Shown here: piece by piece, positions 11,542 through 12,878 of the stretch | Numbering within the stretch: position 1 is the stretch's first letter | How the letters are laid out: the number at the start of each line of letters is the position of its first letter | Origin: Boseongicola sp. SB0675_bin_26 | Lineage (GTDB): Bacteria; Pseudomonadota; Alphaproteobacteria; Rhodobacterales; Rhodobacteraceae | Length of the DNA: 18,433 nucleotides | NCBI GenBank assembly: GCA_009843725.1 | Contig: VYCX01000160.1 | Location: 4,763-23,195 of the forward strand | Direction: 5' to 3' | Translations under genes and position numbers: made by a program | The notes under the pieces: generated by a model | The model's input: only the letters and a program-made list of their open reading frames with translations | Databases searched by the model: none | What the model was told of the DNA's origin: nothing

Positions 11542-11570
11542 TTGACCCCGCTTCTGGGCGCTAGTACGCA
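11542..11570 (+). promoter_or_regulatory. Predicted sigma70-type promoter of metZ
   Basis: TTGACC (11542–11547) and TACGCA (11565–11570) are separated by exactly 17 nt. The predicted transcript start, about 11577, falls one or two bases before the first base of the riboswitch P1 stem at 11579, which is strong positional support despite a mediocre -10. Confidence 0.45.
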
Positions 11571-11577
11571 CTGCTGC

Positions 11578-11634
11578 ACGTGGCGATTTGTTCACCGGAT
11601 TGCGGGCCACGAAAAAGACTCCGCTAAAGAGGTC
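11578..11634 (+). ncRNA. SAM-II riboswitch upstream of metZ
   Basis: The layout matches the SAM-II (metA-motif) H-type pseudoknot of Alphaproteobacteria, which binds S-adenosylmethionine and lowers expression of methionine genes. P1 is CGTGGC (11579–11584) paired with GCCACG (11606–11611), six perfect pairs. Loop 1 has GATTTG (11585–11590). The P1 loop has ACC (11594–11596) and ATTGCGG (11599–11605). An A-rich linker (11612–11616) follows, then CCGCTAAAGAGGT (11621–11633) with the conserved GCTAAA. Pseudoknot pairs can form between GCGG (11602–11605) and CCGC (11621–11624) and between ACC and GGT (11631–11633). Position, directly before a methionine-synthesis gene, fits. It ends about 50 nt before the SD. 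Recognised by eye, not by a covariance search. Confidence 0.88.
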
Positions 11635-11683
11635 TGGGACGTTAACGCCCTTGACGCTCATGCAGTCCGGAACAGGATTGGAC

Positions 11684-11689
11684 AGGAGG
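11684..11689 (+). promoter_or_regulatory. Consensus SD (AGGAGG) that fixes the metZ start at an ATT codon
   Basis: AGGAGG lies 7 nt before ATT (11697–11699). The SD sits in the 7-nt loop of a small hairpin whose stem is GGAC (11680–11683) with GTCC (11691–11694). No other credible ribosome site is near any in-frame canonical start. Confidence 0.75.
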
Positions 11690-11696
11690 CGTCCCC

Positions 11697-12878
11697 ATTA
11701 CCGAAGATTGGAAAAAGCGCACGCAACTCGTGCATGCAGGAATCCGACGAAGCCAGTACGGGGAAGTCGCCGAACCGATTTTCCTCACTCAGGGCTTTGT
11801 CTACGAGAGTGCAGAACAGGCTGCCCAACGATTCGAGGAGGCCGGCGAGGACGAATTCATCTATTCGCGCTACGGGAACCCGACTGTGCGGATGTTCGAG
11901 GAGCGGATTGCCGCAATCGAAGGCGCCGAAGACGCGTTCGCCACGGCTTCGGGCATGGCGGCGGTCTATGCATCCCTGGCCTCGATGCTGAAGACGGGCG
12001 ATCATGTGGTCTCGGCGCGCGCATTGTTCGGATCATGCCTTTATATCCTGGAGGAGGTCCTTCAGCGATTCGGCATTGACGTCACCTTCGTGGACGGCAC
12101 CAGCCTGGACGCGTGGCGGGCGGCAGTGAGGCCGGATACCAAGGCCGTGTTTCTGGAAAGCATTTCCAATCCGACGCTTGAAGTGATCGACATCAAGGCG
12201 GTGGCCGCGATCGCACATGACGTGGGGGCAACGGTGATCGTTGACAACGTGTTCTCGACTCCCGTTCTGAGCCGAGTGCTGGAACTCGGGGCAGACGTCG
12301 TCGTCTACTCCGCGACCAAGCATATCGACGGTCAGGGACGGGTTCTGGGTGGTGTCGTTCTGGGAACAAGGGACTATGTCCGCAAGACGCTGGAACCTTT
12401 CCTGAAGCATACGGGCGGTGCCATGAGCCCGTTCACCGCATGGCTGCTGCTTAAGGGCATGGAGACGCTGGATCTTCGTGTCAAGGCGCAGGCGGAAAGC
12501 GCACTTAACGTGGCCAAAGCGTTCGAAGGTCACGCGCGACTCGAGAGAGTCATCTATCCGGGGCTGCCGTCTCATCCGCAGCACGAAACCGCGATGGCGC
12601 AAATGGAACAGGGCGGGACGGTCGCCACCTTCGTGCTCAAGGGGGGGCAGGAGGCTGCGTTCAGGTTCCTGAATGCGCTCCAGATATTCATCATCTCGAA
12701 CAACCTGGGGGATGCAAAGTCGATCGTGACGCATCCGACAACCACGACTCATCAACGACTGACCGACGAGCAGCGGGGCGAACTGGGCATTTTGCCGGGG
12801 CTCGTACGACTGTCCATGGGACTGGAAGATGTTGATGACCTGATTGGCGACATCCGGCAGGCACTCGAGGCCGCATGA
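11697..12878 (+). CDS. metZ: O-succinylhomoserine sulfhydrylase, apparent AUU start
   Basis: A 393-aa PLP enzyme of the Cys/Met-metabolism family that makes homocysteine from O-succinylhomoserine and sulfide. Seen (numbered from the ATT): the family N-terminus TEDWKKRTQLVHAG, RRSQYGEVAEPIFLTQGFVYES, YSRYGNPT (56–63), ATASGMAAV, VDN with the PLP-contacting Asp183, and SATKHIDGQGR with the PLP lysine Lys208. Near the end are NNLGDAKSIVTHPTTTTHQR and GLVRLSMGLED. In frame upstream of residue 2 there is no ATG, GTG, TTG or CTG before the stop at 11652–11654. The first canonical start inside is a GTG at 11730 in the middle of the conserved TQLVHAG, with no SD. The ATT at 11697 is where MetZ homologues begin and has a perfect SD. 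It is controlled by the SAM-II element. A glutamine amidotransferase follows after 76 nt. Confidence 0.93.
   Translation: MTEDWKKRTQLVHAGIRRSQYGEVAEPIFLTQGFVYESAEQAAQRFEEAGEDEFIYSRYGNPTVRMFEERIAAIEGAEDAFATASGMAAVYASLASMLKTGDHVVSARALFGSCLYILEEVLQRFGIDVTFVDGTSLDAWRAAVRPDTKAVFLESISNPTLEVIDIKAVAAIAHDVGATVIVDNVFSTPVLSRVLELGADVVVYSATKHIDGQGRVLGGVVLGTRDYVRKTLEPFLKHTGGAMSPFTAWLLLKGMETLDLRVKAQAESALNVAKAFEGHARLERVIYPGLPSHPQHETAMAQMEQGGTVATFVLKGGQEAAFRFLNALQIFIISNNLGDAKSIVTHPTTTTHQRLTDEQRGELGILPGLVRLSMGLEDVDDLIGDIRQALEAA

Follow-up and report, generated by a model that had tools for sequence, protein, structure and literature searches.

Where does translation begin when no canonical start codon lies in front of a conserved protein? 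This question is raised by metZ on a stretch of 18,433 nucleotides (hereafter the window) from Boseongicola sp. SB0675_bin_26 (contig VYCX01000160.1, positions 4,763 to 23,195 of the forward strand), whose nearest named relatives are Rhodobacteraceae. Read from an ATT at 11697-11699, metZ (11697-12878, + strand) encodes an O-succinylhomoserine sulfhydrylase of 393 amino acids, identified by its match to TIGR01325 (557 bits against a curated cut-off of 510.05) and by its solved relatives 3ndn and 9iqh. A preliminary description, made from the sequence of the window, proposed that this ATT is read as a rare AUU start codon and that it adds a second translational brake to a gene regulated by S-adenosylmethionine (SAM). 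Here, we compare the metZ start and leader with those of the same genus and of more distant relatives. Judged from these sequences, the AUU at 11697 is by far the best reading of the metZ start and very probably the correct one. The same lineage lacks the transcription terminator that usually accompanies the metZ riboswitch, and the AUU may replace this lost brake rather than add to it.

Results

In the window, a perfect Shine-Dalgarno (SD) sequence, AGGAGG (11684-11689, + strand), is followed by a 7-nt spacer (CGTCCCC, 11690-11696), the ATT at 11697-11699, and then ACCGAAGATTGGAAAAAGCGCACG, coding for TEDWKKRT. The in-frame stop before the ATT is TGA at 11652-11654, and a scan of the window sequence found no ATG, GTG, TTG, or CTG in frame between the two. 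The next in-frame canonical codon downstream is GTG 11730, which is codon 12 when counted from the ATT. Re-reading the sequence thus confirmed the coordinates of all these elements as first described. The arrangement AGGAGG-N7-ATT occurs once in the window, compared with a mean of 0.11 copies in dinucleotide shuffles, and at least one copy was present in 21 of 200 shuffles, so the motif by itself is not very improbable. The evidence for the start is instead the coincidence of this motif with the homologous start position, together with its conservation.

The genus comprises eight genomes in our collection, and metZ was found in seven of them (the window and six relatives, L007-L012), while the eighth, G002, is 65% complete and gave none. 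When the start regions of these closest genomes were aligned, ATT stood at the metZ start in all seven, in agreement with the start initially proposed. In six of the seven, the window included, the stretch from the in-frame stop to the conserved start of the protein holds no canonical codon. All six relatives have a TGA six codons upstream of the ATT, and for five of these the intervening codons are ACA GGA GGC GTN and then CCC or CAA, which leaves no possible canonical start before the GTG at codon 12. The exception is L012, which carries an in-frame ATG five codons 5' of the ATT, overlapping the SD (GAATGGGAGGCGTCCCAATT, ATGGGAGGCGTCCCAATT). The SD itself is AGGAGG with 7-nt spacing in six members and GGGAGG in L012.

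This constancy of the ATT contrasts with variability elsewhere in metZ. The seven genes differ from one another by 2.4-12% at the DNA level (L009 and L011 being the closest pair), and the spacer directly before the ATT takes four forms (CGTCCCC, CGTTCCC, CGTCCAA, and CGTCCCA). Only 75 of the 188 four-fold sites shared by the seven genomes are invariant, and none of the 14 Ile codons common to all seven genes is ATT in every one. Taken together, these comparisons suggest, without proving it, that the ATT at the start is under selection.

To place the genus in context, we assembled outgroup start regions from 80 loci of named records, 49 further loci, and 60 added start regions. After nine duplicates and two truncated loci (L068 and L081) were left out of 196 rows, the census held 178 distinct outgroup regions. 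In every one of these, a canonical codon lay between codons -20 and +8 relative to the aligned metZ start (176 ATG, one TTG, and one GTG). The TTG start belongs to L162, whose leader has a terminator-like stem with merely a short T-tract. The expectation that homologues uniformly begin M-T-(E/D)-W-K was only partly borne out: Trp stood at residue 5 in 142 of the 178 rows, and a Met was aligned with residue 1 in 115; in many of the remaining rows the start is displaced by a few codons. In several outgroups closest to the genus (L036, L037, L148, and L151-L153) the sequence is AAAGGAGGCGTCCCC-ATG, which indicates that the SD and spacer are ancestral and that a single base change, G to T, made the ATT. 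The ancestral state of the start region was therefore likely AGGAGGCGTCCCC-ATG.

A less direct route to the same codon can be envisaged. The start could first have shifted five codons upstream, to another ATG (ATGGGAGGCGTCCCNATT), after which the old ATG drifted to ATT and most species lost the upstream ATG. L012 carries such an ATG, and the database protein P0011, which forms one clade with the genus in the MetZ tree as its sister (support 100/99), begins MGGVPITEEWKK (N-terminus MGGVPI), its annotated start lying five codons upstream as the ATG of L012 does. However, L012 branches from inside the genus (forks of 80-86%), and this history therefore requires several losses or two gains. The upstream ATG of P0011 is a prediction from its protein sequence; searches of 389 and 390 genomes for the genome behind it returned the genus itself alone. 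We consider this history rather unlikely. Moreover, it addresses how the ATT arose and leaves the AUU start of the other six members in place. In L012 and P0011, the upstream start may serve as an alternative, or it may be left over from an earlier state.

By comparison, initiation at GTG 11730 (11730-11732, + strand), which would shorten MetZ by 11 residues across the genus, is very unlikely. This codon is canonical, it stands at codon 12 in all seven genomes, and it is the start used in most near database entries (382 amino acids). Among the matches listed (the best 120 of 7734), 11 database proteins were 92-95% identical (P0001-P0010 and P0012), and 10 of these 11 begin at this GTG. The remaining one, the NCBI entry P0004 (labelled Boseongicola sp. 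and from the genus), has the 393-amino-acid form with MTEDWK at the ATT. Gene finders are reported to generally assume ATG, GTG, and TTG starts alone (PMC5472188), and little weight can therefore be given to the starts in the database. In addition, codon 12 is Val in 169 of the 178 outgroup rows and is coded GTG in 87 of those, and nine of the 32 conserved Val codons in metZ are GTG in all seven genomes. A GTG at this position thus needs no special reason. As the preliminary description had pointed out, the GTG lies within conserved sequence and has no SD in the window. A start there would forfeit Arg8 and Thr9, which are invariant in the genus and present in 167 and 176 of the 178 outgroup rows, and would leave a strong SD idle 7 nt before a conserved ATT. 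Alignments to the two best solved MetZ relatives (3ndn and 9iqh) and to adjoining methionine gamma-lyases begin at query residue 7-9. Taken together, GTG 11730 most likely encodes an internal Val, and the starts in the database are most likely an artefact of gene finders that do not use ATT.

We then turned to the metZ leader. A SAM-II (SAM_alpha) riboswitch aptamer occupies 11570-11648 on the + strand (Rfam RF00521, 58.1 bits against a gathering score of 36), and the same family matches the leaders of L007-L012 at 58.0-59.1 bits. A promoter scan 5' of the aptamer found no sigma-70-like site. SAM_alpha has been noted before such a gene in Rhodobacterales, where it is named metY (PMC4239095), and many SAM-II leaders are reported to carry terminators (PMC1273637; PMC9373788). 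The outgroup leaders fit this description, in that an intrinsic terminator usually stands between the aptamer and the SD, directly 5' of the latter (e.g., GCCCCCGGCGCTCCGCGGTGGGGGCTTTTTATTTGGAAAGGAGGCGTCCCC-ATG in L037). Almost all metZ leaders of the family (L036-L172 and L200-L259) combine the aptamer with such a terminator. After exclusion of 12 outgroups without an aptamer match by pattern, a terminator followed the aptamer in 149 of 166 leaders, 146 of them by pattern and three (L046, L099, and L101) by eye; misses were checked by eye, whereas matches were viewed singly for 123 distinct leaders and rest on the pattern for leaders added later.

By the same pattern, none of the seven genus leaders has an intrinsic terminator between the aptamer and metZ, even though all retain the aptamer. 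What remains at 11647-11683 (+ strand) appears from the comparison of leaders to be a relic of the family's terminator, with its left arm altered and its right, G-rich arm and T-tract lost and replaced (GCCCTTGACGCTCATGCAGTCCGGAACAGGATTGGACAGGAGG in the window). This relic contains GACGCUC (11653-11659), an out-of-frame ATG at 11660, and a hairpin formed by CAGTCC (11663-11668) and GGATTG (11675-11680), and no terminator-like site was found on the + strand of the window in 11647-11683. Terminator loss was rejected as a sufficient cause of the AUU: 17 outgroups lack a terminator by the pattern yet keep ATG (e.g., L047, L057, L132, L133, L200, L216, and L236), so the loss does not force AUU.

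The out-of-frame ATG at 11660 offers a further candidate start, from which a programmed +1 shift at the tandem AGG-AGG could bring ribosomes into the metZ frame near 11696. This ATG is present in all seven genus leaders and its frame is open to 12079 in the window, and AGG-AGG and internal SD sequences promote frameshifts. However, it has no SD in front of it, the candidate slip site varies between species (CCC C, TCC C, CCA A, and CCC A), and it occupies the terminator-loop position of relatives, where it is also found in outgroups with an ATG start (GGCGCTCATGCGG in L153 and L155). We rejected this highly improbable scheme, as ATG 11660 was probably inherited from the terminator loop. The chance that an error of sequencing or assembly turned an ATG into the ATT is smaller still. 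The source assembly of the window is fragmented (574 contigs), but the same codon recurs in seven separate genome records with metZ genes that diverge by 2.4-12%, which excludes a base-calling error.

With AUU 11697 as the preferred start, the leader could in principle act on its accessibility. The terminator remnant GACGCUC (11653-11659) can pair with GAGGCGUC (11686-11693), covering part of the SD. This SD hairpin is the predicted short fold of the window, L007, L008, L009, L011, and, in a shifted form, L010, while L012 folds otherwise. The z-scores of these short folds range from -0.1 to -2.0, and folding a longer, 81-nt stretch of the window gave -0.07. When the aptamer was modelled in its SAM-locked fold, SD accessibility was clearly lower in two of the seven genus sequences and higher in L012. 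These folding models make SAM-dependent translational switching in the genus possible, with weak support.

The same remnant can also pair with GAGGUC (11629-11634, + strand), a 3' strand close to where the aptamer core ends that may correspond to the antiterminator strand of relatives. We could cut 102 of 117 distinct leaders from relatives for a duplex test of GAGGUC with GRCGCUC. Mean duplex energy was -6.66 for a leader's own pair, -5.76 for swapped partners, and -4.89 for shuffled ones, and the own pairing beat the swapped one in 73 leaders and the shuffled one in 89. In one class of 16 leaders (AGAGTCAGG), no such pairing was seen. These results lend moderate support to GAGGUC pairing with the inner arm of the terminator as an antiterminator in relatives. 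Separately, GGGACG at the 3' end of the aptamer (11636-11641) is complementary to CGTCCC (11690-11695) between the SD and the start. Both elements are also found in the near outgroups L036, L037, L148, and L151, in which an outer helix, enclosing the terminator and extending as far as the SD region, is predicted for the read-through RNA.

We also looked for weak starts in other genes of the genus. Eight infC loci were found, one of which (L146) is a contig-edge fragment. All seven readable loci (L139-L145) have ATC-ACC-ATC with no canonical start in front, preceded by AAGGGA in five loci and AAAGGA in two. An ATC start of infC is as expected if initiation factor 3 (IF3) discriminates between start codons here, and these sequences suggest that IF3 autoregulation through a weak infC start is probably kept in the genus. 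When 107 kb of genome G006 was compared with other contigs of the genus, 17 of 54 open reading frames (ORFs) had an alignment extending 5' of the first canonical codon, and we tentatively read these upstream extensions as conserved non-coding DNA. metZ was not among the 17 because the genome of L012 has the upstream ATG. In a second control on G006, 32 of 50 ORFs, metZ included, failed a criterion of SD plus start, indicating that this criterion is too strict.

Discussion

The comparison of sequences itself brings out the position of the metZ start, its conservation in the genus, the ATG of the nearest genera, and the absence of the riboswitch terminator from this lineage. Beyond this, we propose a role for the start codon. 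The perfect SD 7 nt upstream would set AUU 11697 in the ribosomal P site, where the initiator tRNA would insert (formyl)methionine, and discrimination by IF3 would then lower initiation several-fold. By this reasoning, the weak AUU would keep MetZ low in a lineage whose leader can no longer terminate transcription at high SAM. Any remaining effect of the aptamer, if it still works, would have to fall on translation or on the stability of the RNA, for instance through the hairpin of GACGCUC and GAGGCGUC over the SD. A role of the AUU as an expression-lowering brake is plausible and probably correct, and the account as a whole, AUU start and brake together, is on balance likely. The first description had envisaged a second brake on a SAM-regulated gene; the aptamer that this view presumed is present, but the terminator platform that usually goes with it is absent, and perhaps the AUU stands in for lost termination.

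A broader proposal is more doubtful. The genus may have undergone a regulatory swap, in which transcription termination of metZ by the riboswitch was replaced by a translation-level regime, with the aptamer kept, GACGCUC pairing with the SD, and AUG changed to AUU. If such a swap did occur, metZ would be sensitive both to IF3 and to the availability of formylated initiator Met-tRNA, the end product of its own pathway.

Non-canonical start codons are said to have seldom been studied experimentally (PMC5472188), and they tend to be overlooked by gene finders, as the database MetZ proteins cut at GTG illustrate. The likely ancestral state, the single-base change, and the absence of the terminator together make this lineage a natural experiment on whether weak starts evolve to replace lost transcriptional control, and a pair of sequences differing by one base (ATG or ATT) is an easily tested difference. 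Among the matches listed from the open-access literature, judged by titles and the openings of abstracts, we found no AUU start described for metZ or for a riboswitch-controlled gene, which is not proof of absence. Conserved non-canonical starts as a kind are already known (infC, sigR, and ccpN), as is the 393-amino-acid MetZ start through entry P0004. What is new beyond the first reading is that the riboswitch terminator is absent in the same lineage as the AUU.

Known systems resemble metZ in part. The AUU, AUC, and AUA starts of infC in E. coli, Streptomyces, and S. aureus are reported to limit translation through IF3 (PMC5472188; PMC13009471). infC shares a near-cognate AUN start with metZ but autoregulates the very factor that discriminates, a loop that MetZ, as a biosynthetic enzyme, cannot close. 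Streptomyces sigR likewise combines a genus-conserved non-canonical start with a strong AGGAGG-type SD (AGGAGGTG); its start is GTC in 32 of 34 cases and GTT in two, and a canonical start overproduces the protein (PMC5472188). However, sigR encodes a regulatory protein and uses GTC. In S. aureus, cvfC1 (AUU), ccpN (AUA), and citZ (AUA) have extended SD sequences, and expression was ~10% of that of an AUG reporter in poor medium (PMC13009471). These are AUU or AUA starts with a strong SD, and citZ is an enzyme gene, but they belong to a Firmicute, and the AUA of citZ is reported as conserved merely in strains of one laboratory lineage (PMC13009471). Borrelia burgdorferi pncA (BBE22) is an AUU-started metabolic enzyme gene that is truncated in databases, as metZ is, although it is known from one species (PMC13398362). 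The portions of these reports drawn on here describe no riboswitch for sigR, no SAM riboswitch for the S. aureus genes, and no regulatory leader for pncA. The closest parallel in the leader is S. meliloti, in which metZ and metA are reported to have SAM-II riboswitches, with a predicted terminator as the metZ platform and predicted translational control of metA (PMC9373788). S. meliloti metZ shares the SAM-II leader but keeps its terminator, whereas metZ of the genus studied here has none and starts, very probably, at AUU.
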